From the NCBI RefSeq assembly GCF_016463645.1, contig NZ_JAEMQX010000007.1, forward strand, positions 19,553-83,552: a DNA stretch of 64,000 nt, given 5' to 3'. Under the pieces are notes generated by a model. It was not told the origin of the DNA. It saw nothing but the letters and a program-made list of their open reading frames with translations, and did no database searches. A program made the position numbers and the translations under genes. This DNA comes from Sphingopyxis sp. (GTDB taxonomy: Bacteria > Pseudomonadota > Alphaproteobacteria > Sphingomonadales > Sphingomonadaceae). The stretch's first letter is position 1; every line of letters begins with the position of its first letter. Of this stretch, positions 12,872 through 27,409 are shown piece by piece.

Positions 12872-13149
12872 GACAGATGCCCCTTCTGGCGAAGGTGGCG
12901 GACAAGGACCGGGGCGAAGTCGGGATCGCGCTTGGCGGCGAACACCGCGAGAGTGTGCCCGAACGCCCACATGGCCAGCCCGGCGATCCACTGCTGGAGA
13001 CCGAGTCCGAGCGCGGCCGCGATCGTACCATTGACGATCGCGATCGCTCGCGGCGCCCCGCCAAGCAGGATCGGCTCGGCAAGCGCGCGGTGCATCGGCG
13101 CCTCGAACCCCTCGATATGGCTGGCGCCATAGGAATTTGGCGCGTTCAC
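12865..13149 (-). CDS. trbD: TrbD, VirB3-like inner-membrane protein
   Basis: A 94-aa protein starting with a GTG at 13149 that overlaps the trbC stop (GTGA). This start was chosen because the upstream extension in the track is the shadow of trbC. The sequence SHIEGFEAPMHRALAEPILLGGAPRAIAIVNGTIAAALGLGLQQWIAGLAMW has the conserved N-terminal motif followed by two close membrane helices typical of VirB3/TrbD. It acts with TrbE at the inner membrane during pilus assembly. Confidence 0.92.
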   Translation of the reverse strand: MNAPNSYGASHIEGFEAPMHRALAEPILLGGAPRAIAIVNGTIAAALGLGLQQWIAGLAMWAFGHTLAVFAAKRDPDFAPVLVRHLRQKGHLSC

Positions 13150-13499
13150 GAGATGAGCGCCCCGCCGCCGAAGCTGAAGAAGCTGAGGAAGAAGCTCGAC
13201 GCCGCAAACGCGATCGACAGGCCGAAGATGATCTGGATGAGGCGCCGGAACCCGCCTGCCGTCTCGCCGAACGCGAGCGTCAAACCGGTGACGATGATGA
13301 TGATCACCGCGACGATCTTGGCGACAGGACCCTGGACCGATTCGAGGACCTGCTGAAGCGGTTCCTCCCACGGCATGCCCGAGCCGGCGGCCTGCGCGGT
13401 GGCGGCGAGCGCAAGCCCGAGGCCGATGGCGGCGCCGGTGAGGAAGATGCTCCGACGATCGGGAATACGGGCAGGAATACGGGACAAGCGCATGGTCAT
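13146..13499 (-). CDS. trbC: TrbC, VirB2-like conjugative pilin precursor
   Basis: Major pilin of the conjugation pilus; 117 aa. It has a long signal region (SIFLTGAAIGLGLALAATAQAAGSG), a short polar segment, and two hydrophobic helices (VAKIVAVIIIIVTGLTLAF and IIFGLSIAFAASSFFLSFFSF). In RP4 the TrbC precursor is processed and cyclised by the TraF peptidase; a traF gene is present at 32364-32885 of this element. It overlaps trbB by four bases. Confidence 0.94.
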   Translation of the reverse strand: MTMRLSRIPARIPDRRSIFLTGAAIGLGLALAATAQAAGSGMPWEEPLQQVLESVQGPVAKIVAVIIIIVTGLTLAFGETAGGFRRLIQIIFGLSIAFAASSFFLSFFSFGGGALIS

Positions 13500-14518
13500 T
13501 CTCCTTGGGGTTCGAGGGCGTGGTCGGGAGTAAGGTCGAGGACGGCGTAGCCGCCGTCGGGATCGAGGCCGGCGACGCGCGCGATCGTGTCGACGCGGCG
13601 CGCGAGGCCGCGCCCGGCGATGAACACGATCATGTCGATGGCGTCGGCGATCAGCCGGCGCGGAACGGTGACGACGCTTTCCTGCACGAGCTGCTCGAGC
13701 CGGTAGAGCGCCGACACTGCCGAATTGGCGTGGACGGTTGCGATGCCGCCCGGATGCCCGGTGTTCCAGGCTTTGAGCATGTCGAGCGCTTCGCGCCCGC
13801 GCACCTCGCCAACGACGATGCGATCGGGGCGGAGCCGCAATGTCGAGCGGACAAGATCAGCCATCGTGACGCCGCCGGCTCCGGCAGTGCCAATCGTACG
13901 CGTGCGCAGCCCCACCACGTCGGGCGCGGCGCATTGCAACTCACGCGTGTCTTCAATGATGATGACGCGTTCGTCGAGGTGCGCCATCTCGGCGAGCAGC
14001 GCGTTGGCAAGCGTCGTCTTGCCCGAACTGGTGCCACCCGCGACCAGGATGTTCTTGCGCTCGACCACGGCCATCGACAGCAGTCGCGCCGTGTCGGCGG
14101 GCATGATGCCGTCCCGCACATAGTCGAGCAAAGTGTAGATGCGCGCCGCGGGCTTGCGGATCGAGAAGCACGGCGCGAGGCTGACCGGCGGCAGGATACC
14201 CTCGAACCGCTCGCCCGCGCCTTCGCCGTGCGGTGGCAGCTCGGCTGACACGATCGGCGCATTGCCATGAACCTCTGTCCGTGCGTGGCTGGCAACCAGG
14301 CGGATGATCCGCTCGACCTGCGCGGGCTCATATTTGGTGCCGGTATCGATCCGGCCTTCGCCGAGTCGATCAAGGCGCAACACGCCGTCCGGGTTCACCA
14401 TGATCTCGATGACCACCGGATCGGCCAGCGCTGCGGCGATGGTCGGCCCCATCGCGGTGCGCAGCATCGCGCGCCGACGCCCTGCGGAATTATCGGAGCC
14501 GAAAAGCGTGTCGCTCAT
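13496..14518 (-). CDS. trbB: TrbB, VirB11-like hexameric ATPase
   Basis: Traffic ATPase of the type IV secretion system; 340 aa. It has an N-terminal domain (~1-145), Walker A ILVAGGTSSGKTTLANALLAE (~165), the Asp box VIIIEDTRELQ, Walker B region RIVVGEVRGREALDMLKAWNTGHPGG and the conserved His box IATVHANS. All catalytic motifs are intact. First gene of the trb block proper, overlapping the ribbon-helix-helix gene upstream by four bases. Confidence 0.97.
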   Translation of the reverse strand: MSDTLFGSDNSAGRRRAMLRTAMGPTIAAALADPVVIEIMVNPDGVLRLDRLGEGRIDTGTKYEPAQVERIIRLVASHARTEVHGNAPIVSAELPPHGEGAGERFEGILPPVSLAPCFSIRKPAARIYTLLDYVRDGIMPADTARLLSMAVVERKNILVAGGTSSGKTTLANALLAEMAHLDERVIIIEDTRELQCAAPDVVGLRTRTIGTAGAGGVTMADLVRSTLRLRPDRIVVGEVRGREALDMLKAWNTGHPGGIATVHANSAVSALYRLEQLVQESVVTVPRRLIADAIDMIVFIAGRGLARRVDTIARVAGLDPDGGYAVLDLTPDHALEPQGE

Positions 14519-14940
14519 CGCCCACCTCCATTGTCTTTCGCGGAGGCAGCAAGCGTGCGCTGGCCGCTGGCGAGCGCTTCGCCGACGCGGGCAATGAACG
14601 CCTCGAAGCGGTCTCGGCCGATCGCACGCGCCGCTTCGTCGGCTTCGGCCAAAGGGGCCTGCACCATCAGTTCATAGCGGATGAACAGCGCCAGGCTCTC
14701 GAGCAGCACATGCCCGTCACGCTCGACACGCCCCAGCGCGAGCGACATGCGATCGAGCCGCTGGCTGAACTTGTTCTCCAGCTCGCTCGCCGCCTGCCGG
14801 TTGAGCCAGGCGGTGAGCGCGTCGGTGAGGATCGCCGATTTGGACGCGCCGGGCTGGCTCGCCAGCGCCTCGAAGCGGTGGCTCAGATCTTCGGGCAGGA
14901 AGAGCTGGTAGCGGACGCGGTTGGGTTTGATCGCGGCCAT
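14515..14940 (-). CDS. CopG/ribbon-helix-helix protein between traG and trbB
   Basis: A 141-aa protein. The N-terminus (RVRYQLFLPEDLSHRFEALASQPGASKSAILTDALTAWLN) is a ribbon-helix-helix DNA-binding domain (~8-50). The C-terminal half is helical (SLALFIRYELMVQAPLAEADEAARAIGRDRFEAFIARVGEAL). Similar CopG-like genes often sit between traG and trbB in these operons. The 2-bp gap to traG and 4-bp overlap with trbB place it in the same transcript. An autoregulator of the transfer operon is the likely role, inferred from domain and position. Confidence 0.85.
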   Translation of the reverse strand: MAAIKPNRVRYQLFLPEDLSHRFEALASQPGASKSAILTDALTAWLNRQAASELENKFSQRLDRMSLALGRVERDGHVLLESLALFIRYELMVQAPLAEADEAARAIGRDRFEAFIARVGEALASGQRTLAASAKDNGGGR

Positions 14941-14942
14941 TG

Positions 14943-16988
14943 TCAGAAGTCCGGCAGCATGTCGGCGCTGCGACCCTGATTGATCGCGTGAGCGCGGATC
15001 AGCGTGCCGGTGGCGCCGGCGCGGTCCATCGCGTGCTTGTCGGCGATCGTGTCGGTGTCGTCGCTGTCCAGGCCGAGCAGGTCGAGCTGCTTTGGCGGCT
15101 CGGGTTTTTTGGCGGGTTCTTCGCCGAGGCCGGGGTGGCGCTGCTGTTGCAAGCCGCCGTCCTCATCCGCCTTCGCATCGTCATCGGGCTTGCCGAGCCG
15201 GGTATCGGGCGCGCGGACCAGTCCGCTCCAGTCGTTGGGGCGTGCCTGCGGCCGGTCGGGATAGTCTCCGGGCGCGGGCTGCGGCGGCGGTGCGATCCGC
15301 TCGCGGAAATTGCGGTCCTCGTAATAGCGCAGCTTCCTCGCGCGGATCGGGGCCATGCCGGAGACAAGGACAAGCTCATCCTTGGGCGGGAGCTGCATCA
15401 CCTCGCCGGTGGTCAGGAGTGGCCGGGCGGTCTCCTGCCGGCTGACCATGACGTGCGCCAGCCAGGGCGCGAGCCGGTGGCCGGCATAGTTGCGCATCGC
15501 GCGCTGTTCGGTGGCGATGCCGAGCGCGTCCGAAATCCGCCGCGCCGTGCGCTCGTCGTTGGTCGCAAACGCGACGCGGACATGGCAGTTGTCGAGGATC
15601 GAGTTGTGCTCGCCATAAGCCTTCTCGATCTGGTTCAAGGACTGCGCGATCAGGAAGGCGCGCACTCCATAGCCCGCGAGAAAGGCAAGACTGGTCTCGA
15701 AGAAGTCGAGCCGCCCCAATGCCGGGAACTCGTCGAGCATCATCAGGAGCTTGTGCTTGCCCGCCCTGGCGGGATCGGCATCGAGCTTTTCGGTGAGGCG
15801 GCGGCCGATCTGGTTGAGCACCAACCGCACCAGCGGCTTGGTGCGGCTGATGTCCGATGGCGGGATGACAAGGTAGAGCGAGACCGGATGGCCGGCCTCG
15901 ACGAGATCGGCGATCCGCCAGTCGCAGCGCGATGTCACCGCGGCGACGGTCGGGTCGCGATAGAGCCCGAGAAACGACATTGCGGTGGAGAGGACGCCGC
16001 TGCGCTCGTTCTCGCTCTTGTTGAGCACCTCGCGCGCCGCCGAGGCGACGACGGGATGGATCTGCGGCGCATCCTTCGTGCCGAGGTGATTGGTGGTCAT
16101 CATCCGCCGGAGCGTGGCGGTGAACGGCCGCTGCGGGTCCGACAGGAATGTGGCTACCCGTGCGAGCGTCTTTTCTTCCTCCGCATAAAGGACGTGGAGG
16201 ATCGCGCCGACCAGGAGCGAATGGGAGGTTTTCTCCCAGTGGTTGCGCCGTTCGAGCGCGCCTTCGGGATCGACCAGGATGTCGGCGATGTTCTGGACGT
16301 CGCGGACCTCATGCTCGCCGCGCCGGACCTCCAGCAGCGGGTTGTATTTGGCGGAAGCGGGATCGGTCGGATTGAACAGCAGGACGTGGGAGAAGCGCGC
16401 GCGCCAGCCGGCGGTGAGCTGCCAGTTCTCGCCCTTGATGTCGTGAACCACGGCGCTGCCGGTCCAGCCAAGCAGTGTCGGTATGACCAGCCCGACGCCC
16501 TTGCCCGAACGGGTTGGCGCGAACGCCATGATATGTTCGGGGCCGTCATGCCGGAGATAGCGGCCGCGCGAGCGGCCCAGGAATACGCCGGCATCACCGT
16601 AAAGGCCGGCCCGCTCGATCTCGTTCGGCCTGGCCCAGCGCGCCGAACCATAGGTGGTGACGTGACGCGACTGCCGCGCGCGCCAGAGCGAGCCTGCGAT
16701 CGCCGCGCCGCAGCCGATGAAACCGCTCGCGCCGGCGAGCGCGCCGGCCTTGTCGAAAACATGCGGCGCATAGGCATCGTAGTGATACCACCAGGGGAAG
16801 AGCGCCCAGGGACGATAGACCGGCGTGCTTCCAGCCATGAACCAGGCCGGACCAAGTTCGGGCTGGTAGGCGAGCATCGCCGCCGCCCATTGGGTCGCCG
16901 CCCAGAGGCCCGCGATCACGATTGCGAACACGACAAGGATCTGGCCGATGAGCAATTTGGTCGGGGTCACGTTGAAGCTCCCGCCCAT
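14943..16988 (-). CDS. traG: TraG/VirD4 type IV coupling protein
   Basis: Couples the relaxase-DNA complex to the secretion channel; 681 aa. Two N-terminal membrane segments (LIGQILVVFAIVIAGLWAATQ at ~14-34 and a second around 80-100) precede the RecA-like domain. Walker A is MAFAPTRSGKGVGLVIPTLL (~157-164), Walker B KLLMMLDEFPALGRLDFFE. The tail is acidic and proline-rich. It is the promoter-proximal gene of the traG-trbI operon, so transcription of the whole transfer operon probably begins in the 324-bp gap upstream. Confidence 0.97.
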   Translation of the reverse strand: MGGSFNVTPTKLLIGQILVVFAIVIAGLWAATQWAAAMLAYQPELGPAWFMAGSTPVYRPWALFPWWYHYDAYAPHVFDKAGALAGASGFIGCGAAIAGSLWRARQSRHVTTYGSARWARPNEIERAGLYGDAGVFLGRSRGRYLRHDGPEHIMAFAPTRSGKGVGLVIPTLLGWTGSAVVHDIKGENWQLTAGWRARFSHVLLFNPTDPASAKYNPLLEVRRGEHEVRDVQNIADILVDPEGALERRNHWEKTSHSLLVGAILHVLYAEEEKTLARVATFLSDPQRPFTATLRRMMTTNHLGTKDAPQIHPVVASAAREVLNKSENERSGVLSTAMSFLGLYRDPTVAAVTSRCDWRIADLVEAGHPVSLYLVIPPSDISRTKPLVRLVLNQIGRRLTEKLDADPARAGKHKLLMMLDEFPALGRLDFFETSLAFLAGYGVRAFLIAQSLNQIEKAYGEHNSILDNCHVRVAFATNDERTARRISDALGIATEQRAMRNYAGHRLAPWLAHVMVSRQETARPLLTTGEVMQLPPKDELVLVSGMAPIRARKLRYYEDRNFRERIAPPPQPAPGDYPDRPQARPNDWSGLVRAPDTRLGKPDDDAKADEDGGLQQQRHPGLGEEPAKKPEPPKQLDLLGLDSDDTDTIADKHAMDRAGATGTLIRAHAINQGRSADMLPDF

Positions 16989-17312
16989 ACCGCCGGATGC
17001 GGTCGGGGCGCGGCTTCAAGACTCGGCTATGGGCCGCCCGAAATGAACGGAGCCGCTGGGGGCTGGTGGGTGACCGAAGGAGATCACTCGTCGGCGACTG
17101 ACTCAATATTCCAGCTCTGTTCTTTTGATCGAGCTATGACCCGAGTTGATGATTCTGCCCTGTCGTTGTCCCTCGAGGTGGCACTGACCACCACACCGCA
17201 CCGCCGATGACCCGCTACACCCTGCAAAAATCCGAGCTGCAAATTCGGGCTTGCGTGTCGGATTATCAGACATTATATCGCATTTAATGTAGTGAAATCG
17301 TGCGAGGCATGC
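16989..17312. other. Divergent intergenic region between traG and the ACP-like gene
   Basis: No convincing gene. It must hold the promoters of the minus-strand transfer operon and of the plus-strand protease cluster. AT-rich sequence lies at ~17265-17300 (GGATTATCAGACATTATATCGC), a plausible promoter for the plus-strand genes; I see no clear sigma-70 consensus for traG. Confidence 0.5.
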
Positions 17313-17651
17313 ATGGCGACAATCGCTCCTCCGCAGCCCGCGGCAACCGCGTTTCCCAAAGCCGACGCCATTAGGGCGTTGGTCGACGAACTGCTGCAAG
17401 TGGCCAGGGCTGAGGCACAGGTGCGCGGAATTGCCCTGCCTCCGGAAAACCCGAAGATCATCCAGGCGCCCGTGCCACTCGACTCCTTGTCCGTGGTCGA
17501 CACGCTTTGCGCGGTGGAGCAGGTCCTCGACATCGAGCTTCGCGACAGCATCGTCCGCACCGGCGGCTACAATTCGATCGAGAAGGCGATTGACGACCTC
17601 CTCCCTAAGATCGAACGCGTCTGGGTTAAGAAGAAAGGGTCGAAGCCATGA
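17313..17651 (+). CDS. Acyl-carrier-protein-like small protein, first gene of the protease cluster
   Basis: A 112-aa protein. The ATG at 17313 is preferred over the track GTG at 17292 because GAGG lies five bases before it. Residues ~54-100 (PVPLDSLSVVDTLCAVEQVLDIELRDSI...YNSIEKAIDDLLPKI) match the acyl-carrier-protein pattern, including an Asp-Ser-Leu motif whose Ser58 would carry phosphopantetheine and the amphipathic helix III. The N-terminal ~45 residues are helical and unassigned. The stop overlaps the start of the XRE gene (ATGA), so it belongs to the same transcript. Function unknown; the ACP resemblance is read by eye from the motif pattern. Confidence 0.7.
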   Translation: MATIAPPQPAATAFPKADAIRALVDELLQVARAEAQVRGIALPPENPKIIQAPVPLDSLSVVDTLCAVEQVLDIELRDSIVRTGGYNSIEKAIDDLLPKIERVWVKKKGSKP

Positions 17652-18022
17652 CCAATCTCGCACTCCGCCAGGAAGGCGACGAGCAGGAGCGGCGGCGCTT
17701 GGGCGACCGTCTGCGCGAAGCACGGAAATATCTCGGCCTCAAGCAGGAAGAAGTTGCTGCCTATCTCAAGATTCCCCGGACCGCGCTTACCGATATCGAG
17801 AATGGCCAGCGCCGCGTTGAAGCGATCGAACTGACGCGGCTTGCCCGTCTTTACCGCCAGTCGGTGGCCTATTTTACCGGCGAAGACGAGGCCTCCGCGA
17901 GCCTTCCCGCCGATGTCGCCCATCTGGCGCGACGCGTTGCGGCCTTGTCGACTGAGGACCGGGCCGAGCTGAGCCGGTTTGCCGAATATCTCCGCTCGCG
18001 GTCTGGCGGCGAACGGAGCTGA
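17648..18022 (+). CDS. XRE-family helix-turn-helix regulator
   Basis: A 124-aa protein with a Cro/C1-type HTH at ~22-78 (LGDRLREARKYLGLKQEEVAAYLKIPRTALTDIENGQRRVEAIELTRLARLYRQSVAYF) and a short helical tail. It overlaps the ACP-like gene by four bases and lies three bases before the ImmA/IrrE peptidase gene. XRE repressor plus ImmA/IrrE peptidase is a known pairing in which the metallopeptidase can inactivate the repressor (ImmR/ImmA of ICEBs1, DdrO/IrrE). By analogy this protein probably represses the cluster; this is inference. Confidence 0.88.
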   Translation: MTNLALRQEGDEQERRRLGDRLREARKYLGLKQEEVAAYLKIPRTALTDIENGQRRVEAIELTRLARLYRQSVAYFTGEDEASASLPADVAHLARRVAALSTEDRAELSRFAEYLRSRSGGERS

Positions 18023-18025
18023 TCG

Positions 18026-19036
18026 ATGGCGTCGGATTATGCGAGCGCGGTTCGCGCTGGTACGATGGCAGCGGGCCGCCTGCATCGCGAACTCGATACG
18101 CGCGCACTGATCGAGACCCAAGGCGGCAGCGTCGATGTCTTCGGCGCGATCCATGCCGTGGGTCTACCCTTGCTGCTTCGTCCTCTGAAAGGCCTGCTCG
18201 GCGCCTATCTCAGCGCACCTGCTCCTGGCGTTCTCGTCACGACGGAACGACCGATGAGCATCCAGCGCTTCACGGCCGCGCACGAACTCGGGCATTTTTC
18301 GATGCGACACGAGCCGAGCCTCGACGATGAGAGCATCCTGCGCCGGATGCCGATGTCGCCCGAACCGGGAAACAACTTCGAGGAAACCGAAGCCGACGCC
18401 TTTGCGATCGCCTTCATGATGCCGAAATGGCTGGTGCTCGCGCACAGCGCGCGACAAGGATGGCAGATCGATCATTTCCGGCGCCCCAATGTCGTCTATC
18501 AGCTCTCGCTGCGGATCGGCGCCAGCTATGAGGCGACGTGCCGCACCCTGGTTCGCTACAATCTGATTTCGCCATCGGTGATGACCGACCTGCTCCGGAC
18601 GCAGCCGCGCAGCCTGAAGGTCGATCTCCTCAAGGACTATCGGCCCGACAACTATCGCGGCGACGTCTGGCTGCTGACCGAGCGCGATGCCGGCTCGCGG
18701 ATCGATGGCAGTCGCAATGATCTTTTCGTGCTGCAGCTCGAAGAACATAGCGGCGGTGGGTATCTCTGGGATCTCGACCAACTGATCGCCAGCGGCTTCG
18801 CCGTCGTTCGAGACGAGCGTGAGGCAATCGACGGCGATGGCATCGGTGGTCCCGTTGTCCGCCGTGTCACCGCGGCGCCCGATGCGCCGCGGCGCGGCCG
18901 CATGTCGCTCGACGAGCGGCGGCCGTGGCAGCCTGCGCCGGCCCTCACCAGCCTGACGCTCGATTTCGACCTCACCGGCCCGGAACAGACGGGCCTGTCG
19001 CGCGCCGAACGGCGGCACCTGCTCGAGGCCGCCTGA
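18026..19036 (+). CDS. ImmA/IrrE-type zinc peptidase fused to a chagasin-like inhibitor domain
   Basis: A 336-aa protein of two parts. Residues ~25-195 are an ImmA/IrrE metallopeptidase: SIQRFTAAHELGHFSMRHE supplies the HExxH zinc site (86-90) and NNFEETEADAFAIAFMMP the downstream acidic ligand helix. Residues ~211-318 resemble the chagasin/I42 papain-inhibitor fold: a beta-strand leading to SGGGYLWDL (canonical TTGYxW loop) and, ~50 residues later, DERRPWQP (canonical RPWE loop). The next gene encodes a papain-like peptidase, the target class of chagasins, which strengthens the reading. Such a fusion could tie regulator cleavage to release of the neighbouring protease. The peptidase call is secure; the inhibitor domain is from motif spacing only. 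Confidence 0.85.
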   Translation: MASDYASAVRAGTMAAGRLHRELDTRALIETQGGSVDVFGAIHAVGLPLLLRPLKGLLGAYLSAPAPGVLVTTERPMSIQRFTAAHELGHFSMRHEPSLDDESILRRMPMSPEPGNNFEETEADAFAIAFMMPKWLVLAHSARQGWQIDHFRRPNVVYQLSLRIGASYEATCRTLVRYNLISPSVMTDLLRTQPRSLKVDLLKDYRPDNYRGDVWLLTERDAGSRIDGSRNDLFVLQLEEHSGGGYLWDLDQLIASGFAVVRDEREAIDGDGIGGPVVRRVTAAPDAPRRGRMSLDERRPWQPAPALTSLTLDFDLTGPEQTGLSRAERRHLLEAA

Positions 19037-19042
19037 CGCCCC

Positions 19043-19723
19043 ATGATCGATATCGTCCGTGACCTTCGGCCGCTGTTCGGGCCTGCGCGCGATCAAGGCG
19101 CGCGGCCGACATGCCTCGCATTCGCCGCGAGCGACACCCACGCCGGGCTTCGCGACGGCTGGGCACCGCTGTCGTGTGAATTCGCCTTTTATGCCGCGCA
19201 GAAACGGGCGGGCAGACCGCCGACGAGCGGCGCACTGCTATCCACAATGCTGGACGCGCTACGGCTCGATGGCCAACCCGACGAGAAAGGCTGGCCGTAT
19301 CTGGCAGCGGTTCCAGCCGATCATCGACTGTGGACGCCGCCGGCGACCGTTGGCCCGCTCTATGGCCGCAACGGACAGAGGGATGGAACCGACCTGTCAT
19401 CCATCCTTGCCGCGCTGGATCGTGACACGCCGGTGCTCATGCTGACGATGCTGTCACGGTCTTTCTTCCAGCCGCGCGGTGATGGCGTCGTCGATCCGGC
19501 GAACGACGAACTCCCCGAGCCAGCGCAACGGCACGCGGTCGTCGCGGTCGGGCATGGAACCGTGGACGGCACCCCGGCCATTCTCATCCGCAACAGCTGG
19601 GGACCAGGTTGGGGCTTGGAAGGCCACGCCTGGCTTACTGAGCGCTTTCTAGCGCCGCGCCTTTTCGCCACGGCAAATTTGACGGAGGAAGTCGATGTAT
19701 CTTCCCATACCGCCGCAGCCTGA
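19043..19723 (+). CDS. Papain-like (C1) cysteine peptidase, cytoplasmic
   Basis: A 226-aa protein with a complete papain active site: oxyanion Gln18 and nucleophile Cys24 in RDQGARPTCLAFAAS, His164 in AQRHAVVAVGHG and Asn184 in LIRNSWGPGWGLEGHAWL. It has no signal peptide and no pro-domain, so it would act in the cytoplasm and must be controlled some other way; the chagasin-like domain encoded just upstream is a candidate inhibitor. It starts six bases after that gene and its last 29 bases overlap the thymidylate-synthase-like gene. A toxic effector of the cluster is possible. Confidence 0.85.
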   Translation: MIDIVRDLRPLFGPARDQGARPTCLAFAASDTHAGLRDGWAPLSCEFAFYAAQKRAGRPPTSGALLSTMLDALRLDGQPDEKGWPYLAAVPADHRLWTPPATVGPLYGRNGQRDGTDLSSILAALDRDTPVLMLTMLSRSFFQPRGDGVVDPANDELPEPAQRHAVVAVGHGTVDGTPAILIRNSWGPGWGLEGHAWLTERFLAPRLFATANLTEEVDVSSHTAAA

Positions 19724-20474
19724 CTGCGTTGCTGGCTGGCGCGAGGCGGTCCGGCTCGTCGACCTCGCCACCGGACACCAGGCGCAGAATGTCGTCATCT
19801 CCGTGGCCGAGCCGACTGCGCGCGCAACACTCGCCGATCCCGTCGTGGCGGAAGTCGATGCCTTCCTTTCGGGCCATGGCAAGAAGCCCATCGAGACGGT
19901 CGCCAACACGATTTTTCCGGCAGCGCTGTACAGGCGCTACGGCGCGCCGCAATTCTTCGACCGGTTTCGCGACAACGTGCTGCCGAAGGTCCGGAGGTCG
20001 GGCGCTTGGTCGGGCTATTATTTCGAACGGATGATGGAATTGCCCCGCGCCGACGGCCAGCCAATCAATCAAATCTGGGGCATCGTCGAGCGCCTGCGCA
20101 ACCCGAACGTCCGAGCGCTCAACAAATTCGAACTGCTGATCTTCGACCCCGCCCGCGACGTGAATGACTCGCCCTACGGCGGTCAGTGCCTGAGCTTTGC
20201 CAGTCTCAAGCTGATCGGCAAGGGCGACGATCGTCGCCTCGGCATGACCGCGCTCTACCGCAATCACTACTATATCGAAAAACTGCTCGGCAATCTGATC
20301 GGCCTCGGCCGTCTGCTCGAATTCATCGCCAAGGAAGGCGGGGTCGCGCTGGGTCCGCTCACGATCGTCTCGACCAACGCCACGGTCGACACCGCCAACT
20401 GGAACCGCGGCGATCTTAAGCAACTCTTTGAACGCTGCGATCAGGCGAGCGCACATCTCCGTGCTGCGGCGTGA
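19695..20474 (+). CDS. Thymidylate-synthase-like protein
   Basis: A 259-aa protein with a strong GGAGG site just before the ATG at 19695, inside the end of the peptidase gene. The C-terminal half follows the thymidylate synthase/dCMP-hydroxymethylase pattern: a Cys at 165 in YGGQCLSFASLKLIG, then LGMTALYRNHYYIEKLLGNLIGLGRLLEFIAKEGGVALG, resembling the RS.D...G.P.N....A.L....A...G...G stretch, then TIVSTNAT where synthases have the GDAHIY strand. The N-terminal ~120 residues do not look like a canonical synthase. It may modify or sense pyrimidine nucleotides. The assignment is by pattern and is moderate. Confidence 0.6.
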   Translation: MYLPIPPQPDCVAGWREAVRLVDLATGHQAQNVVISVAEPTARATLADPVVAEVDAFLSGHGKKPIETVANTIFPAALYRRYGAPQFFDRFRDNVLPKVRRSGAWSGYYFERMMELPRADGQPINQIWGIVERLRNPNVRALNKFELLIFDPARDVNDSPYGGQCLSFASLKLIGKGDDRRLGMTALYRNHYYIEKLLGNLIGLGRLLEFIAKEGGVALGPLTIVSTNATVDTANWNRGDLKQLFERCDQASAHLRAAA

Positions 20475-21145
20475 GGCGCGCCCAACGGCAGTTCTAGCGG
20501 CTCATCGTTGTCATCCGCGACACCGTACAGGCTGAACATGCCCTCGATGAACTCGCGCTGCCCGCCGTAGCTCGGATGGCGGACCGCGGTGGTCGGAATG
20601 TCGAGACCGTCCAGCGCCAGGTGAGCGTCGCGCCCGATCGCGACGATCTGGCGGGGCCGGATCATTGACACGAGGGCTTGCAATATCGGCCAGGTCGCCT
20701 CGCGCTCGCTTCGCGTGTGGCATCGGTTCGACATCGGATCATCCGCTTCATGGGGATGGAACGGGAAAACGTTCCAGAGCATGACAGGCTGACCGATCCG
20801 CTCTAGCACACGCCAGACGATCGCCGCGGTGCGCTCCGCCACGGCGGGTCCCTGCGTCGCACGTTCAAATGCGATGCCGCCCATCAGCGTGCCGGCATGT
20901 CCGAGGTGAATTTCGTCGGTCAGCGGTACGCCCGTACGCCGCCCCCCGCGATAGCCGAGATCACGCGCGATCCAGATCGTTTCGACGCGATGATCAAGCG
21001 CCGCGGTGAGCAGCATTTCGAGATTGTCGCGGCGCCGGGCGGCGGCGTCGCTGCGGTCATGGACCGTGCAGCGATCGCGCCAGGGATTGAACACTGAGGG
21101 AAGTTCGGTCGCCGCCAGGGTGGACACAAAGGATTTCGGGGTCAT
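20441..21145 (-). CDS. Uracil-DNA-glycosylase superfamily protein
   Basis: A 234-aa protein from the ATG at 21145; the track leader is the shadow of the MazG-like gene. Superfamily signatures: an N-terminal FNPWRD, the RDLGYRGGRRTGVPLTDEIHLG loop (resembling the GEAPGYRGARRTGIPFTSE motif of UDG-like proteins), MLWNVFPFHPH, PRQIVAIGRDAHLAL and a C-terminal VRHPSYGGQREF with the conserved His. It overlaps mazG by four bases and its 3' end overlaps the convergent synthase-like gene by 34 bases. It could excise or bind uracil or a modified base. Enzyme specificity cannot be set from sequence. Confidence 0.8.
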   Translation of the reverse strand: MTPKSFVSTLAATELPSVFNPWRDRCTVHDRSDAAARRRDNLEMLLTAALDHRVETIWIARDLGYRGGRRTGVPLTDEIHLGHAGTLMGGIAFERATQGPAVAERTAAIVWRVLERIGQPVMLWNVFPFHPHEADDPMSNRCHTRSEREATWPILQALVSMIRPRQIVAIGRDAHLALDGLDIPTTAVRHPSYGGQREFIEGMFSLYGVADDNDEPLELPLGAPHAAARRCALA

Positions 21146-22320
21146 GACGGCAATTCCTTGATACGCAGGCGGCGATTGGCGAAGTCGATCAGGACGCGGC
21201 CGCGCCGATGCTCCTGAAGGAAGCGGAAAGCCGTATAGCCCTGGAGGATCGCTTCCTCCCAAAGCCACAGCGGACAGCGTTCTGATTCGTAGCCGGCGAC
21301 GAACTGGCGGACATGCTTCAGCATGTCCAGCGGAAGGCCACCGCGCTTCACGTTTTCAAAGTACCGGAGTTGCTGCGCTTGTCCGAAAATCCAGGAAGTT
21401 ATGCCCTCTTCGATGAGAATCGCCCGAGCACCGTCTTCGGCGTCGTCGAGTTTCGGATCGCTCTTGCGCTTGAGACGGAGCAGCGCACGCAGCACTGGCG
21501 ACCAGCCAAGCACCGCGACATAAGCGTAGTGAAAGACATCGTGGAAACGATAGTCGTCGGGTTCGAGCGCGTTGTCGGTGAGCCGGTCGCCGACATACAC
21601 ACCGCTTGAGCGTTGATACACGAATGTCTGCCCGCGAACGGTGCGTTCATAGACGTCGATCGCCATCCGCCGCGGCAATTGCTCTTCTGGGTCGAGCGCC
21701 GCATCGGTCGGCGCCGGATAGATGCGCTCGCGCGGCCAGCGATCGAAGATCTTGTGAAGATTCTTCACGGCGGCAGCCTCGATGGTAACACCGGATTCGT
21801 TTGCCGCCTGGATCAACCGGCGCATGACCGCGACCAGCCGGCCCGCGAGTGCTTCGCGGTCCTTCGCAAGACCGCCCGCCTGGAAATCGTTGATGAGCAG
21901 CCCAACGTCGCCTGCCAGCGCGAGCAGGCTATGCTCGAACTGCGGCATCGGTGCCTTGGCAAGCGGAATGTGCTGCGGCTGCAGCGCATGGAAACTGAGC
22001 GTTTCGTTGCCGCCCGTCTGCCATTGTCCGCCGTTTGTCGCCGCGGCGGCAGCGATGTCGCTGAGCGCCATGCGGCTGCGCCGTGCGATCGCCGCCAGAT
22101 ACCAAAGGACGTCACCAAGCTCTTCCGCGACGGCGTGAGCGTAACCCAGGTAGGAGGCATCGTCGCGCTGCTTTTTCTTGGCCTCACTGAGCAAGCTGCC
22201 GACTTCGCCGAAAAGGCCAAGCATCGAGAAGCCCAGTGCGCGGCCACCGCTGCGTTGATCAGTCCGCGCGGCCTGCTTCGCATAATCCGCAACAGTGAGA
22301 GCTTCGAAATCCTCGCTCAT
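21142..22320 (-). CDS. MazG-like nucleotide pyrophosphohydrolase with an extra C-terminal domain
   Basis: A 392-aa protein. Residues ~1-120 form a MazG-type helical domain with metal-binding acidic residues (MLGLFGEVGSLLSEAKKKQ, then VAEELGDVLWYLAAIARRS, i.e. E..E ... E..D). Such domains hydrolyse (d)NTPs to monophosphates. The middle holds a second helical stretch. The C-terminal ~170 residues (DDYRFHDVFHYAYVAVLGWSPV, AILIEEGITSWIFGQAQQL, LWLWEEAILQGYTAFRFL) are conserved-looking, His/Glu-rich and unassigned. It overlaps the small RHH gene upstream and the UDG-like gene downstream by four bases each, forming a minus-strand operon. Confidence 0.8.
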   Translation of the reverse strand: MSEDFEALTVADYAKQAARTDQRSGGRALGFSMLGLFGEVGSLLSEAKKKQRDDASYLGYAHAVAEELGDVLWYLAAIARRSRMALSDIAAAAATNGGQWQTGGNETLSFHALQPQHIPLAKAPMPQFEHSLLALAGDVGLLINDFQAGGLAKDREALAGRLVAVMRRLIQAANESGVTIEAAAVKNLHKIFDRWPRERIYPAPTDAALDPEEQLPRRMAIDVYERTVRGQTFVYQRSSGVYVGDRLTDNALEPDDYRFHDVFHYAYVAVLGWSPVLRALLRLKRKSDPKLDDAEDGARAILIEEGITSWIFGQAQQLRYFENVKRGGLPLDMLKHVRQFVAGYESERCPLWLWEEAILQGYTAFRFLQEHRRGRVLIDFANRRLRIKELPS

Positions 22321-22517
22321 CGCCTGCCCTTCCGGCGATCCGATATCGCGTCTGCGGGGACGCTCACGCCATAGGCTTCAAGTGCCCGCAGTACGATCAT
22401 CCGGATCGGCTCGCGGGAATCGAGCGACCGTTGACCGAGATCGCGTTTCGTAACGGCAGGAATCTGCACCTGAAGATGCTCGTCGCCGACATCGGTTTGC
22501 GCTGCGATATTTTTCAT
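22317..22517 (-). CDS. Small ribbon-helix-helix-like protein, start of mazG operon
   Basis: A 66-aa protein if started at the ATG at 22517 (MKNIAAQTDVGDEHLQVQIPAVTKRDLGQRSLDSREPIRMIVLRALEAYGV); the track start at 22541 adds eight residues and is also possible. The strand-helix-helix pattern is that of short RHH repressors. Three TTTCATG-type dyads overlap its start, consistent with autorepression. The stop overlaps the mazG-like start by four bases. The relaxase gene ends 28-52 bases upstream, so read-through from relaxase is possible. Confidence 0.65.
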   Translation of the reverse strand: MKNIAAQTDVGDEHLQVQIPAVTKRDLGQRSLDSREPIRMIVLRALEAYGVSVPADAISDRRKGRR

Positions 22518-22546
22518 GAATCCATGAAAACATAATTTCATGAAAA
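22512..22546. promoter_or_regulatory. Clustered TTTCATGAAA dyads at the RHH gene start
   Basis: TTTCATGAA (22512-22520), CATGAAAA (22523-22530) and ATTTCATGAAAAT (22535-22547) form overlapping palindromes around the RHH start codons. They look like an operator for the RHH protein controlling its own mazG/UDG operon. Confidence 0.55.
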
Positions 22547-22568
22547 TAGAAAGCCCGAATCCTCCGGA

Positions 22569-24533
22569 TCAGGAGACGCTCGGCCCGCTGCGCTGCCGCC
22601 CGAGTGTCCAGTTGATCCCGCCGTCGCGCATGATGCCCGAGACCGATTTACCGACATGGCGATCGAGAACAGAGCGCCACGGCACCAGCGTGAAATCGCG
22701 CGACCGTTCGATGAGCGCATGGCGACCACTCGTCATCTCGACTGCGCGCACGAGCCTGCCTTGAACAGCCTCCCCCTCTCTGGCCTCGGCGAACGGAACG
22801 CCTAACTTGTCGGAGAGCTGGCGGGCGACACGCAGCAATTCTCGCCGCTGGAGCGCGGCGAGCATCCCTCGCCGATAGACCGTCTGCCCATCCTGTTCGT
22901 CTGCAAGCTGTTCGGTGATCAGCCATTGCCGTCGCATCGCCTGCGCTGAACGAACCTCGTGCCCGAACCCAGCATCGCGCACTGGCACCGGCGCTTCGGC
23001 GACCAGCTCGCGATCGAGCCAGGTCGCGGCATCGGTTCCCGGTAATTTGTCGAGCGGGATCGCCGACAGGGTTTCAATGGCAACGGGGTGGTCGCGGAAC
23101 TGCATGGCTTCGAACCTCTCGACCCTGGCGAGATGGTCCGGCGCGATGATCCAGCTTCCGTCGGGCTCGCGCTCGACGACGCCCGAGATTTTTCGCATCG
23201 CTTCAAGCCGCCGGACATGCGTTTCGGCGAAGCGTTCGCTGGCGGTCGGATCGTGCTTCAGATGGGCGTCGATCGAATAGCGCCCGCCGTTCGCCGCCGC
23301 GATCTCGTCGATCGTCCGATCGACGGCGCGAATGCCGCCCTCGCGTGGCGCGATCCGGACGATGGCATTTTCGGGGATCGTGTCGACCAGCTCGCCCTTG
23401 CCGATCTCGGCATAATGGGTGCGCCCGTCGATGCCGTCGACCAGCAGATAATGACGGTCTTCATGTTCGTCGGCGAGCCCGCGCATCACGACGCGGCCGA
23501 TGATCGGCGTCGCCTCCTTCGCGACCGGGTCGTAGATGACGCGATCGACCGCAGCACGATCGAGCTTCCGCGCGGTCAGCTCGCGCTGCATGGTGCGGAT
23601 GATGTCGCCGCGCTCGCCGATCTGGCGCAGTGTGTTCGCAAGGTCGGGCTCAAGCCGCCAGGTGCCGTTGCCGACATGCGAGGCGAGTCCCATGCGCCCG
23701 AGTTTCTGCAGGCGACCGACGCGAAGCGATTGCTGGAAGGGATCGCCATCGCTCGCGCTGACCAGCCGCGCGGTATCCATGTCGCGGATCAGCCGTCTGT
23801 CGATCGCGGTCAGCCGCTCGGCACCCGTATCGCTGCGAAGCCGCTCTTCGATTTCAAGGTCGGTGCGCGGCCCCAGGTCGAGGTTGACGATCTCGATCGC
23901 CCGCTGCCGGCTCCCGTGCGAGATATACTCGCGCGCGATCAGCAGATTCTCACCCCGATCGTTTACGCCGCGCACCACGATATGCGTGTGCGGATGGCCG
24001 GTATTGAAATGGTCGACCGCCACCCAATCGAGCTTTGTCCCAAGATCCTGCTCCATCTGCGTCATCAGCCGGCGCACGAACGGCTTCAAGTCGGGATACT
24101 GGTCGGCGTCCTCGGCCGACACGATGAACCGGAACTGGCGGCGGTCGCCGTCACACCGTTCGAGGAACGCCTTGCCATCGGCGACGTCGCTGTCGGGCGA
24201 GTAGAGCGCACCAGCCTCGCCCTCACGGGTCACGCCGTCGCGCTGAATATAGCGAAGGTGCGCCTTCGCACCGCCCATGCCTTTCCCGCCAAGGCCGACA
24301 GGCCGTATCTTGACGATCACGCGGCGCGACCGGAACGCGCCCAATCGGTCGCGCGATCTGAGCACCCGCGCAACACTCGCGCCGCGCCCGATCCGGCTGC
24401 CGTCGAAACGGCCGCGCCTGCCCGTTTTCATGCCGGCCCGCTTTGCCGCTTTCACGACGCGGCTCAGGTAGCGCTGCTCCTTGCCCCGGCCGCGCATCCG
24501 GCCCAGCTGCGGTTCGAACTCATCATCGCGCAT
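22569..24533 (-). CDS. VirD2-like MOB-P relaxase (DUF3363 type)
   Basis: A 654-aa relaxase from the ATG at 24533 (MRDDEFEPQLGRMRGRG); the track start adds a leader running through the intergenic oriT region. N-terminal nickase motifs: AKAHLRYIQRDG with candidate catalytic Tyr95, RQFRFIVSAEDA, and the His triad VDHFNTGHPHTHIVVRG (~180-184). The C-terminal ~350 residues are the DUF3363-type region (PEDLANTLRQIGERGDIIRTMQRELT and later helices). It would nick oriT and pilot the strand through TraG. The oriT candidate lies 190 bases upstream of its start. Confidence 0.95.
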   Translation of the reverse strand: MRDDEFEPQLGRMRGRGKEQRYLSRVVKAAKRAGMKTGRRGRFDGSRIGRGASVARVLRSRDRLGAFRSRRVIVKIRPVGLGGKGMGGAKAHLRYIQRDGVTREGEAGALYSPDSDVADGKAFLERCDGDRRQFRFIVSAEDADQYPDLKPFVRRLMTQMEQDLGTKLDWVAVDHFNTGHPHTHIVVRGVNDRGENLLIAREYISHGSRQRAIEIVNLDLGPRTDLEIEERLRSDTGAERLTAIDRRLIRDMDTARLVSASDGDPFQQSLRVGRLQKLGRMGLASHVGNGTWRLEPDLANTLRQIGERGDIIRTMQRELTARKLDRAAVDRVIYDPVAKEATPIIGRVVMRGLADEHEDRHYLLVDGIDGRTHYAEIGKGELVDTIPENAIVRIAPREGGIRAVDRTIDEIAAANGGRYSIDAHLKHDPTASERFAETHVRRLEAMRKISGVVEREPDGSWIIAPDHLARVERFEAMQFRDHPVAIETLSAIPLDKLPGTDAATWLDRELVAEAPVPVRDAGFGHEVRSAQAMRRQWLITEQLADEQDGQTVYRRGMLAALQRRELLRVARQLSDKLGVPFAEAREGEAVQGRLVRAVEMTSGRHALIERSRDFTLVPWRSVLDRHVGKSVSGIMRDGGINWTLGRQRSGPSVS

Positions 24534-24879
24534 AGCGGCGTCCTTCCATGCCGGAATGACGCTCCCCGCCGATAAGAATGGCGCGTCCTCGCCAGAGCGC
24601 AAGGAGTCTCGCGATTGGGATCGGAAAAGCCCAGAAAACCGCCACTCCTGGTAACCCTGTCTCGCACTCAAAGGGCGAGTCTCGCAAAAGCCTTCAAAAA
24701 ACGATGTGCAGACAAACACTTACAAAATCGCGAGATTTTGCCTCTATCTTGCCATCGAGCCCGACTGCCACCTGCCGCCCCAGACGCCCGCTTTGCCTTC
24801 CCGCCTTCCCGATCAAAAAAGGGGAGCGGCGCCATGCGGCACCACTCCCGCGAACCTGCCCCTTCAACAGCGCATCGCC
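24534..24879. other. Intergenic region upstream of relaxase, holding oriT candidate
   Basis: About 345 bases without a gene. It contains a direct repeat TCTCGCA (24658-24664 and ~24679-24685), an AAAATC-GCGA-GATTTT hairpin and a TATCTTGCC nick-like sequence, then GC-rich DNA. It is also the likely site of the relaxase promoter. Confidence 0.6.
24724..24753 (+). other. Candidate oriT core (hairpin plus nick-like site)
   Basis: A perfect 6-bp inverted repeat AAAATC/GATTTT with a GCGA loop (24724-24739) is followed five bases later by TATCTTGCC (24745-24753). This is one base from the RP4/T-DNA-border nick consensus TATCCTG|CC. Its position directly upstream of the relaxase gene fits MOB-P systems. 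The nick would lie between 24751 and 24752. Confidence 0.55.
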
Positions 24880-25041
24880 TTATTGCCAGCCTGCCTGTTC
24901 GGCCTGACGCAGCGCCCGATTGCACCGCTTCAGCCTCTTCTCAGCGGCCCTTAATTCGGCTTCGATCTGCCGCCGTTCTCCCGCGTCATCGCACCATGAA
25001 AGCTCCGCGCGAAGCTCCTCGATCTGTTGTTCAACCGACAT
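24880..25041 (-). CDS. Small coiled-coil protein between oriT and DUF736
   Basis: A 53-aa ORF too short for the track: MSVEQQIEELRAELSW...ERRQIEAELRAAEKRLKRCNRALRQAEQAGWQ. The AGGAGG site six to ten bases before the ATG at 25041 is near-perfect, and the heptad-like pattern of Leu/Ala with alternating charge predicts a coiled coil. It lies beside the oriT region, downstream of DUF736 on the same strand, so a relaxosome or regulatory accessory role is conceivable but unproven. Confidence 0.7.
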   Translation of the reverse strand: MSVEQQIEELRAELSWCDDAGERRQIEAELRAAEKRLKRCNRALRQAEQAGWQ

Positions 25042-25373
25042 CTCATCCTCCTGATACAAGCGAAAGATGAGCCATCGCCCGGCGGGGAGCGGGCGGGGTC
25101 AACCACCGCGCAGCGGCCGCGAAGCGGGCGACGGGGGAGCCGATTTTCTCGTCGCCGGAGTGGAGCGAAGCGGAACGCAGGTGGCGTGAAAATTGGGGGA
25201 ACCGTCGATGGTTGAGGCGGTCCGTTCGCCGCCGGATACTCGGTGCTTGCTGAGCGGATTTCTTCCTCTCTGCAGGCCCGCAAGCGCGTTCCGGTGCAGG
25301 AAAAGGCCCACGCCAAGCCCTCAAGGCATGAGGAAAGCCCCGCGCCGGGTGACCGGCGCGGGGCCGATCCGGC
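25042..25373. other. GC-rich intergenic region
   Basis: About 330 bases with only shadow ORFs. It contains GCGAAGCGG-type short repeats that recur near 25780-25860. No gene, terminator or site could be supported. Confidence 0.4.
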
Positions 25374-25694
25374 TCAGTCGCCGGGGTTCCAGATAACGGC
25401 GAACGCGTCGTCGTCGTCCTGCCCGGCGGCGCGGCCGAGATTGGCGTAGAGGGTGCGGCCGCCAAGTTCGGGGGCCGACATGGCGAGGCGGACATATTCG
25501 CGCTGGCTCACCTCGCCGGTGCGGATCCAGCCGCCGCCCAGTTCGACGCCGTTCGACAGCACGCGGTAGTCGGGCTGGTCCCCGGTCTTACTGCGGTTGG
25601 GGATGATGGCGATCTCGGCATTGACCGAAAGCGTCTTCAAGGCGCCCCGGAACGAACCGTCGTTCTGGCGCTGGACATGACCGATTGAGGGCAT
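25374..25694 (-). CDS. DUF736 family protein
   Basis: A 106-aa protein. MPSIGHVQRQNDGSFRGALKTLSVNAEIAIIPNRSK...PDYRVLSNGVELGGGWIRTGEVSQREYVRLAMSAPEL is a full-length DUF736 protein: a beta-rich fold with the conserved G.F.G.L.TL and YRV....ELG.GW segments. DUF736 genes are common in the oriT-parB region of alphaproteobacterial plasmids and ICEs. The biochemical role is unknown; single-stranded-DNA-related functions have been guessed from context. Confidence 0.9.
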   Translation of the reverse strand: MPSIGHVQRQNDGSFRGALKTLSVNAEIAIIPNRSKTGDQPDYRVLSNGVELGGGWIRTGEVSQREYVRLAMSAPELGGRTLYANLGRAAGQDDDDAFAVIWNPGD

Positions 25695-26054
25695 TTCTCG
25701 TCTCCTTGCACATTCGCCCGACCCGATGCCGGGCGATGGGCGGACCGAAGGGACGGCCCTTGAGCGCGCTGCGAACCGCAGGCCGAAGCGAAGCGGAGGA
25801 CCGGAAGCGCGGGGCTGATTTGGAGCGAAGCGGCCGCGAGGAGCGCCGCCAAAGCGGCGCGGGGAAATCAGTTCCGCGCGATGGTTTCGCGAGGCGCGCG
25901 GCCGTCCCAGGTCATGCGCCCAAGGAGCCGGCGACGGGTTGGTGAGACACGAAAGGACGAGATGCGCGCGCGGACAGGAAGCCCAGTCCGGCGTCTTTCC
26001 GGGAAGCCATGATTGCTTTCGCGGCCACGAGGCCGCGGCTATAGCCTCACGGCG
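25695..26054. other. GC-rich intergenic region between DUF736 and plus-strand small gene
   Basis: About 360 bases. Only overlapping shadow ORFs are present, plus short GAAGCGG-type repeats. The promoters of the divergent DUF736 and 26055 genes must lie here; no consensus could be picked with confidence. Confidence 0.4.
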
Positions 26055-26282
26055 ATGAACGAAGGAACGACGATTGCGGGGCAGATCGAACGGCTGATCG
26101 TGCGGCTGGACGGCGCGGCGGTGTGCGATGCCTGCGTGACTGACCGGCTCAACCTGTCGGTTACCGCACAGGCCAATGTCGTCACCTGCGCGCTCGGCGG
26201 CACGCGCGGATTCGAGCGGCAGAAGGACGAATGCACGTTATGCGGAAGCGCCCGGACGGTGATCCGCCGCACCGCCCGGTAG
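26055..26282 (+). CDS. Small zinc-ribbon-like hypothetical protein
   Basis: A 75-aa protein from the ATG at 26055 (MNEGTTIAGQIERLIVRLDGAAVCDACVTDRLNL...FERQKDECTLCGSARTVIRR). Two CxxC pairs (CDAC and CTLC) about 40 residues apart suggest a zinc ribbon, and the N-terminal helix could be a small winged-helix element. It is the only plus-strand gene in the 22.3-36 kb backbone. Similar small proteins are frequent in sphingomonad transfer regions, from memory; function unknown. Confidence 0.65.
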   Translation: MNEGTTIAGQIERLIVRLDGAAVCDACVTDRLNLSVTAQANVVTCALGGTRGFERQKDECTLCGSARTVIRRTAR

Positions 26283-26335
26283 GTCAGGCGGCAGGGGTTT
26301 TCGGCACGCGAGCGCGCAGTGCGGCGCGATTTGGG

Positions 26336-26839
26336 CTAGTTGCCGTCGCCCGCGAGCGCGCGCGACAGCGCCTCGTTGGTCGCGTCGATCTCGATGCGGT
26401 CTGCGAAAATCGCGCACCAGCCGCCACCGAACTCCCCGATGCGGGGCTTGGAACAGGTCATGGCCCATTCAAAGCCGATCGGCCCCTTGGCGAGCGTTTC
26501 GGGGCAACATCGCTGGATCACCACCGCGATGGCAGCGGCATCGAAATCGTCCATGCTGGCGAAACACACGATCCGCGCGGATGGATCGTCGGGGCAGGTT
26601 TCAGCGATGAAATCGGCTCCGATGGTGGGAAATTCGGGATCGTTGAACGCCTCGCGAAACCCGCTCCACCGCGCGTTCGCATCGTCCGGCGGAAAGGCTG
26701 CGAGCAGCGCCGCGCTCGGCGGATCGGGCGCGTCGTCATTCGCTAGCGCGTAGCCAGCGTTTGCGACTTCCTCGATCAGCGCGCACTCGGCGGCGGTGCA
26801 GCGAAAGGCGAAGCTGCCCTGAATCCAGATGTCAGCCAT
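26336..26839 (-). CDS. Hypothetical protein of the backbone
   Basis: A 167-aa acidic protein from the ATG at 26839 (MADIWIQGSFAFRCTAAECALIEEVANAGYAL). The track ORF is extended through the next gene and should be ignored upstream. It contains a beta-alpha pattern and the segment IVCFASMDDFDAAAIAVVIQRCCPETLAKGPIGFEWAMTCSKPRIGEFGGGWCAIF. No known domain was recognised. Its start overlaps the end of 26832-27299 by eight bases, and both proteins begin with similar MAD...I.G.. strands, hinting at related folds and joint function. Confidence 0.75.
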   Translation of the reverse strand: MADIWIQGSFAFRCTAAECALIEEVANAGYALANDDAPDPPSAALLAAFPPDDANARWSGFREAFNDPEFPTIGADFIAETCPDDPSARIVCFASMDDFDAAAIAVVIQRCCPETLAKGPIGFEWAMTCSKPRIGEFGGGWCAIFADRIEIDATNEALSRALAGDGN

Positions 26840-27299
26840 TGCTCGCCTCCTCCCGTTCGGGCGTGATGACAAGCGGGGGCACCGCGAAGTCGGCCGCATC
26901 GAAATGCGCGATGATCGCCGCATAGCTGCCCAATCGCTCGGCGGTGCAGCGCCCCATGAGGATATAGTCGTCCTCGTCGGCAGCGTAGCTTTGCGGTTCG
27001 CCGCTGCCGGTGAACACGGTGCGTTCCGCACCCCACTGGCAGGCATAGGCGCCCGACCAGCGCGCGAAGAAAAGCCCATGCGCGATGCAGAAGGCTTCGA
27101 GTCCCTCGAACCGCCCCCAGGCGACCTCGTGCGCCATGAGCGCCAAGGGCTCGCCCTCGGGCAGATCGCCGAGCGCGAAGGGTTCGCCGTCCCATTCGGT
27201 GGACAGCCCTTCGTTCGCGATGGCCTCGGCGAAGGCGGGAAGCTGGCTGGCGGGGAGCGTCCCGCCGATGGTGATGGATGCCGAAACACGGTCGGCCAT
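26832..27299 (-). CDS. Hypothetical protein of the backbone, partner of 26336-26839
   Basis: A 155-aa acidic protein (MADRVSASITIGGTLPASQLPAFAEAIANEGLSTEW...LMAHEVAWGRFEGLEAFCIAHGLFFARWSGAYACQWGAERTVFTG). The N-terminal strand-helix pattern resembles that of the downstream protein. No catalytic motif is evident. It is translationally coupled to the downstream gene and lies downstream of parB on the same strand with a 110-base gap. Not recognised. Confidence 0.75.
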   Translation of the reverse strand: MADRVSASITIGGTLPASQLPAFAEAIANEGLSTEWDGEPFALGDLPEGEPLALMAHEVAWGRFEGLEAFCIAHGLFFARWSGAYACQWGAERTVFTGSGEPQSYAADEDDYILMGRCTAERLGSYAAIIAHFDAADFAVPPLVITPEREEASNG

Positions 27300-27409
27300 G
27301 ACAAGTCTCCTGTCTGAAATCCGCGCCGCGAGGGCCGCTTGCGGCCGAGCGGCGCGGCGATTTTATGGGGGACGGAACGGGCGGCGGGTGCGCCGCCGCC
27401 CGTCCAGTT

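Follow-up and report, generated by a model that had tools for sequence, protein, structure and literature searches.

In the ImmR/ImmA pair of ICEBs1, an integrative and conjugative element (ICE), and in the CapH/CapP pair of the cyclic oligonucleotide-based anti-phage signalling system CBASS, a peptidase of the M78 family relieves an XRE-family repressor. We analysed a cassette in which an XRE gene likewise adjoins an M78 peptidase gene, located in a stretch of 64,000 nucleotides of Sphingopyxis sp. DNA (contig NZ_JAEMQX010000007.1, positions 19,553 to 83,552), which as a whole is called the window here. In this cassette, however, the peptidase (ImmA) bears an I42 inhibitor domain and the next gene encodes a papain-like C1 peptidase. 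A protein resembling acyl carrier proteins (ACP) and a thymidylate synthase (TS)-like protein complete the plus-strand arm, and the minus-strand arm encodes a uracil-DNA glycosylase (UDG)-superfamily protein and a MazG protein with a MazG_C domain. The cassette is real and conserved, is almost certainly one functional system and is probably a defence system directed against phages or other mobile genetic elements.

A comparison with PADLOC systems gave only generic XRE/ImmA similarity (best matches capH, 2e-12, and capP, 2e-12), so that an ordinary CBASS or another PADLOC system was ruled out; among the eight proteins of the cassette there was no match to a CD-NTase or a CBASS effector. The I42 domain is like the chagasin and amoebiasin inhibitors in its fold and in the positions of its inhibitory loops, but here it is fused to a metallopeptidase and adjoins the gene of a C1 peptidase that has no propeptide. 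The MazG_C and UDG families recur in the same order, with about 47% identity between the UDG proteins, in operons encoding ThsB_TIR, Nmad2, MazG_C and UDG, which have TIR and Nmad2 where the cassette has ACP-XRE-ImmA-C1-TS.

In the available part of the DefensePredictor paper (2026; PMC13092281), TS, dNMP kinase, 5-hydroxymethyldeoxyuridine (5-hmdU) DNA kinase and NMAD domains are reported in one or more validated Escherichia coli defence units, while MazG/MazG-C, UDG, aGPT-PPlase and NMAD are listed among the domains of predicted nucleotide-modification defence systems. Among experimentally tested systems, the E. coli unit or units come nearest in kind; compared by domain name only, they share TS-type and 5-hmdU-kinase-type domains with the cassette family, whereas ImmA, I42, C1, ACP, UDG and MazG_C are not mentioned for them in that part of the paper; NMAD is a further link, as Nmad relatives adjoin the same MazG_C/HMUDK_hel module elsewhere. 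The predicted systems (Fig. 6F of PMC13092281) share MazG/MazG_C and UDG, but the text and legend, in the part available, are without ACP, XRE-ImmA-I42 and C1. With respect to the 5-hmdU hypermodification of phages, the 5-hmdU DNA kinase and aGPT-PPlase are absent from the window cassette, and HMUDK_hel occurs only in other versions of it; a phage hypermodification island was ruled out, as the TS-like protein had no match in 50,697 phage records and only one viral contig was found. The initial annotation of this DNA had not recognised the combination as a named system, and indeed it is absent from PADLOC and from the literature searched, a search that left Iyer 2013 and Burroughs 2015 outside.

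A bounded cassette inherited as one unit

A different element (locus L061) has only positions 17240-22545 of the window in common with it, at 76.8% identity, and the flanks are unrelated in the alignment. The limits of the cassette are fixed by this comparison, because the homology covers exactly this interval. The surrounding element was also found elsewhere: 12 Sphingomonadales loci, L042-L053, from several genera match 13-16.8 kb of it with no or almost no differences, and six further loci show 96% identity to the element around the cassette.

When the TS-like and ImmA proteins were searched with tblastn against 72,556 plasmids, each matched 21 plasmid records and 20 were common to both; in the record matched by ImmA alone (L024) the TS gene adjoins too. 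C1 matched 19 records, 16 of which were the same as the ImmA/TS records. A genome scan found 209 relatives, and 80 loci were kept for analysis. The complete plus arm was found together with the minus-arm pair in 77 of these, and two of the three exceptions are contig fragments. The correlation of pairwise distances between genes was 0.84-0.94 inside the plus arm and 0.74-0.84 between the plus and minus arms, and dN/dS was 0.06-0.18 for all seven main genes. Co-occurrence, purifying selection and the cassette boundaries rule out a chance assembly or an annotation artefact. Thus the initial annotation, which joined a plus-strand and a minus-strand half into one system, was right in that the genes travel together and the halves are not always apart.

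Two observations concern the copies in other Sphingomonadales. Genomes of Sphingopyxis, Aurantiacibacter, Sphingobium and Novosphingobium (L042-L054) share at least 16.8 kb of the element (11695-28471 of the window) at 100% identity; identity of this length between genera points to very recent, promiscuous transfer. In Hankyongella ginsenosidimutans (L029 and L043), frameshifts split the ImmA and C1 genes, and in L029 the MazG gene too, of a copy that is otherwise 99.8% identical; these frameshifts are probably sequencing errors.

The cassette lies between genes for conjugative transfer (Table 1). Eight open reading frames are present at 17313-22541, five on the plus and three on the minus strand, in the order and with the spacing first described. 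Profile searches recovered each family named in the initial annotation, and its seven genes are all there, but an eighth, small gene (P0008) also belongs to the cassette. Genes of this type are present in about half of the loci; the protein gave no match in Pfam and by eye resembles a regulator of the ribbon-helix-helix type for the minus arm.

Table 1. Features of the cassette and of its flanks (positions in the window).
Feature	Position	Strand	Profile match	Remarks
Whole cassette, ~5.3 kb	17240..22545	.		Ends defined by aligning the homologous L061 cassette
Sigma70-like promoter	17251..17279	+		-35 TTGCGT 17251-17256, 17-bp spacer, -10 TATATC 17274-17279; read from sequence
Palindromic operator TGTCGGA-TTA-TCAGACA	17256..17272	.		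Inside promoter spacer ahead of ACP; putative XRE site
ACP-like protein P0001	17313..17651	+		Attachment site D57-S58; family profile, neighbouring phosphopantetheinyl transferases
XRE-family repressor P0002	17648..18022	+	HTH_3/HTH_31 4e-11	Profile search, PADLOC
ImmA/IrrE M78 peptidase P0003	18026..19036	+	Peptidase_M78 4e-9 and Inhibitor_I42 3.5e-5, single protein	HELGH 86-90, E120; C-terminal chagasin-type I42, ~residues 214-310
C1 papain-like peptidase P0004	19043..19723	+	Peptidase_C1 7e-10	Q18-C24-H164-N184, without propeptide
Thymidylate-synthase-like protein P0005	19695..20474	+	Thymidylate synthase TIGR03283 (methanogen type) 4e-10	C165 and N200 retained; Asp lost at folate-binding position
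UDG-superfamily protein P0006	20441..21148	-	UDG 4e-6	Invariant D63, N126, H191-P-S; 3' end convergently overlaps TS gene
MazG pyrophosphohydrolase with MazG_C domain P0007	21142..22320	-	MazG_C 3e-78 plus MazG 4e-5	
74-aa protein P0008	22317..22541	-		Eighth gene; CATGAAAT-type palindrome at gene start
Type IV secretion system coupling protein	14946-16988	-		One flank of cassette
Relaxase	22572-24719	-		Other flank of cassette

Exchangeable modules around a common core

Architectures were counted after dereplication at 75% ImmA identity, which left 41 loci. Type A, with C1 present and the I42 domain on ImmA, accounts for 32 loci; the 9 loci of type B, from Streptomyces, cyanobacteria, sphingomonads and other Pseudomonadota, lack both and consist of ACP-XRE-ImmA-TS-HMUDK_hel-MazG_C. 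No locus had only one of I42 and C1. Of the 41 loci, 40 have ACP and XRE, the lone exception being cut by a contig edge, and all have MazG_C or a family termed H576. The base-recognition partner is either UDG (28/41) or HMUDK_hel (13/41), never both, and on the TS tree it changes at least twice. The core ACP-XRE-ImmA-TS-MazG was seen in alpha- and betaproteobacteria, Streptomyces and cyanobacteria, and also in Haloarcula, with H576 replacing MazG_C. This result does not agree with the protease-centred half of the initial annotation: C1 is not a universal part of the core, and the ACP, which had been placed in that half, lies outside it, because it is retained in loci where the protease is gone.

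H576 is an unnamed helical family with no clear Pfam match, and replaces MazG_C in L015 (3310-3885), L023, L027, L150, L163 and L120; that it is a second MazG was ruled out, since profile comparison shows no relation (probability 0.5%). Among the optional companions of the cassette, a holo-ACP synthase or phosphopantetheinyl transferase lies beside the ACP gene in 8/41 loci, and a dCTP-deaminase-like protein is encoded in 9/41. Companions of the latter kind, noted in L019, L020, L021, L023, L027, L036, L038, L040 and L188, carry a hydrophobic stretch at the C-terminus in nearly all full-length copies, and perhaps act as a membrane effector or sensor.

To survey the partners of MazG_C, 385 genomes of the class were sampled evenly, and 13 of them carry this domain. 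On long enough contigs, UDG or HMUDK_hel adjoins every copy, whereas the other partner is either ACP-XRE-ImmA-(C1)-TS or Nmad2, the latter nearly always with a TIR protein; in Agrobacterium it is a calcineurin-type phosphoesterase with a TS-like region. Since the pair of MazG_C and UDG or HMUDK_hel occurs with alternative partners, the minus arm is a reusable nucleotide module, in keeping with the pyrimidine-nucleotide unit that the initial annotation had seen in it. The operons of ThsB_TIR, Nmad2, MazG_C and UDG (L157 4885-7778, L158 4807-7700, L180-L182 and L192) look like a sister system whose effector is a TIR protein. Two further arrangements were noted in L156 (3612-5801, minus strand) and L022 (8885-12140): the calcineurin-type phosphoesterase with a TS-like region lies by MazG_C and UDG, and in S. 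fredii extra TS-like genes directly follow the cassette.

The C1 peptidase, its putative inhibitor domain and the predicted repressor switch

The active-site residues Q18, C24, H164 and N184 of C1 are invariant in 42 of 42 loci. The catalytic Cys is found at residue 23-27 in most copies, which leaves no room for a propeptide of the zymogen type, and no evident signal peptide was found in the peptidase. The predicted structure of ImmA-I42 has a mean pLDDT of 85; by sequence comparison, its I42 domain is similar to amoebiasin/chagasin (1e-8), and the C-terminal part of the model superposes on EhICP2/chagasin with a TM-score of 0.73-0.78, depending on the target. Chagasin inhibits through loops L2, L4 (GXGG region) and L6 (RPW) (PMC2607524). 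At these places the I42 domain has GGGYLW, VGGP and RPW: the L4 and L6 motifs are kept, including the conserved R299 and W301 of RPW, whereas L2 reads GGGYLW instead of NPTTGY. Because the inhibitory loops are there, the genes are adjacent and both partners are present or absent together, sequence and model strongly suggest that C1 is held inactive by the I42 domain of ImmA. A protease that would be active from birth, with an inhibitor domain encoded one gene earlier, fits such caging.

The XRE helix-turn-helix gene adjoins an M78 peptidase gene with an intact HExxH motif, and relatives show the same promoter layout (TTGCAT ... TATAAA/TATATT). Of the 32 dereplicated type A loci, 27 have an operator scoring at least 11/14 at the corresponding position, while the mean best score of shuffled sequences was 8.7; some divergent loci have other palindromes there. 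A single operator for both arms was sought and not found, the minus arm having its own CATGAAAT-type palindromes beside the 74-aa gene. By analogy with the characterised pairs, ImmA should remove XRE. The pairings of repressor with ImmA and of protease with inhibitor, both proposed in the initial annotation, are real and co-vary; its suggestion that ImmA senses nucleotides found no specific support. Instead, the N-terminal part of the ImmA model matches IrrE/PprI (including the single-stranded DNA complex 8sln), and the ImmA part also resembles CapP, which makes a trigger of the DNA-damage type plausible, and this appears at least as likely as nucleotide sensing.

These features may also be read as a plasmid or ICE addiction (toxin-antitoxin) module, in which C1 would be the toxin, ImmA-I42 the antitoxin and XRE an autoregulator, with the nucleotide genes modulating. 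Protease and inhibitor are never apart, the cassette lies between transfer genes of conjugative plasmids and ICEs, and the operator looks autoregulatory. However, the same ACP-XRE-ImmA-TS-MazG core is also widespread without the protease, and seven genes with intact active sites far exceed what such a module needs, so that we consider addiction unlikely.

Nucleotide enzymes and a candidate defence mechanism

As a single sequence, the ACP-like protein gave a weak ACP match (0.008), but the hits of its family profile in the PDB are almost only ACPs (best 0.001), and D57-S58 is invariant in 42/42 loci. No phosphopantetheinyl transferase was seen in the window cassette. A dedicated holo-ACP might point to a thiol-bound partner. 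In the TS-like protein, the catalytic C165 and the dUMP-binding N200 are invariant, whereas position 192, which corresponds to the folate-binding Asp (D169 in E. coli), is Y, F, H or Q in every sequence except the archaeal one, and position 166, a His after the catalytic Cys in the standard enzyme, is L (M in one sequence). With these two residues lost and C165 and N200 kept, the reaction is probably nonstandard: formation of the usual covalent adduct may have been retained, whereas the standard methylation probably has not.

The invariant D63, N126 and H191-P-S of the UDG-like protein correspond to the catalytic Asp, the base-reading Asn and the HPS motif, mapped on E. coli UDG by motif order; it is a putative glycosylase with a glycosylase-type active site. 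Distant UDG relatives with 27-35% identity occur on Pseudomonas, Variovorax and Marinobacter megaplasmids (plasmid hits H146-H161). The acidic residues of MazG are retained, and its closest well-named relatives are RS21-C6/dCTP pyrophosphatase. The MazG_C part (P0007 residues 205-389) had no significant match among PDB structures, and a known fold for it was rejected, there being only a weak similarity to dimeric dUTPase that probably comes from the MazG part; judging by its invariant motifs (FHDxFHYA-like and EEG), it may be an enzyme.

A base modification by TS, MazG, HMUDK_hel/UDG and ACP, serving as a mark that shields the DNA of the element itself from restriction in the manner of phage thymidine hypermodification, would be consistent with the position of the cassette within a transfer region, with the dCTP deaminase-like and dTMP kinase-like genes nearby in relatives, and with HMUDK_hel, a family named after the 5-hmdU DNA kinase of phage hypermodification. 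This explanation we regard as improbable, since the cassette is almost absent from phages, the window copy has no kinase, aGPT-PPlase or polymerase, the TS folate site is not conserved, and the caged protease and TIR-linked versions are left unexplained. Very unlikely, finally, is a cargo for the repair of DNA or the sanitation of nucleotide pools (control of dUTP/dCTP, removal of uracil), damage-induced via ImmA and helping conjugating single-stranded DNA to survive: it would suit the relation of MazG to dCTP pyrophosphatase/RS21-C6, the intact UDG active site and the likeness of ImmA to the damage-responsive IrrE/PprI, but it leaves the C1/I42 pair, the ACP and the TIR/Nmad2 swap all unexplained.

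For the defence system that we favour, we infer the role, the trigger, the substrates and the order of events as follows. XRE bound to the promoter palindrome would keep the ACP-XRE-ImmA-C1-TS operon low. Upon infection or DNA damage, ImmA would inactivate XRE, as ImmA/ImmR, IrrE/DdrO and CapP/CapH lead one to expect, and expression would rise, with C1 still kept inactive by the I42 domain of ImmA. MazG, the TS-like enzyme, UDG (HMUDK_hel in relatives) and holo-ACP would form, eliminate or sense a modified pyrimidine deoxynucleotide; a phage that disturbs this nucleotide chemistry would cause the ImmA-I42/C1 complex to open, and the freed protease would stop the infection, probably at a cost to the cell. 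The effector arm would be exchangeable, as some relatives are without protease and MazG_C with UDG/HMUDK_hel is elsewhere linked to TIR and Nmad2. For this mechanism as a whole, an XRE/ImmA-switched defence carried by plasmids and ICEs, with a modified pyrimidine nucleotide and an I42-caged papain, we see even chances. A more specific version is rather unlikely, namely a two-lock immunity in which ImmA both lifts repression and cages the papain, the gate is a pyrimidine nucleotide made by the folate-free TS and held on ACP, and the same module drives TIR effectors elsewhere.

Among the genes near the cassettes of relatives, a raw listing includes Gabija, Shedu, AbiE, caspase-like, TIR, SIR2 and CBASS phospholipase genes. 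Several results speak against the defence mechanism. Conjugation genes are commoner than defence genes around the cassettes. The TS-like protein has lost its folate-binding Asp. The TS tree shows a single, joint change of I42 and C1, so that their pairing is consistent but not replicated, and independent phylogenetic support for it was dropped. A contig classed as viral (L206 3139-7933) carries a complete protease-less version, with MazG_C, ACP, XRE, ImmA, TS and HMUDK_hel.

Taken together, one co-inherited system, its pairings and its nucleotide arm stand from the reading of the initial annotation, but not the protease as core, the placement of the ACP or nucleotide sensing by ImmA. In the cassette a natural ImmA-inhibitor fusion is encoded along with its protease, and the TS family no longer has a folate site. 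One nucleotide module is combined with an exchangeable effector side, which may be a caged papain, TIR or none. A clearly bounded system, shared by Pseudomonadota, Actinomycetota, Cyanobacteriota and Halobacteria, would thus join the predicted, almost untested class of nucleotide-modification immunity.

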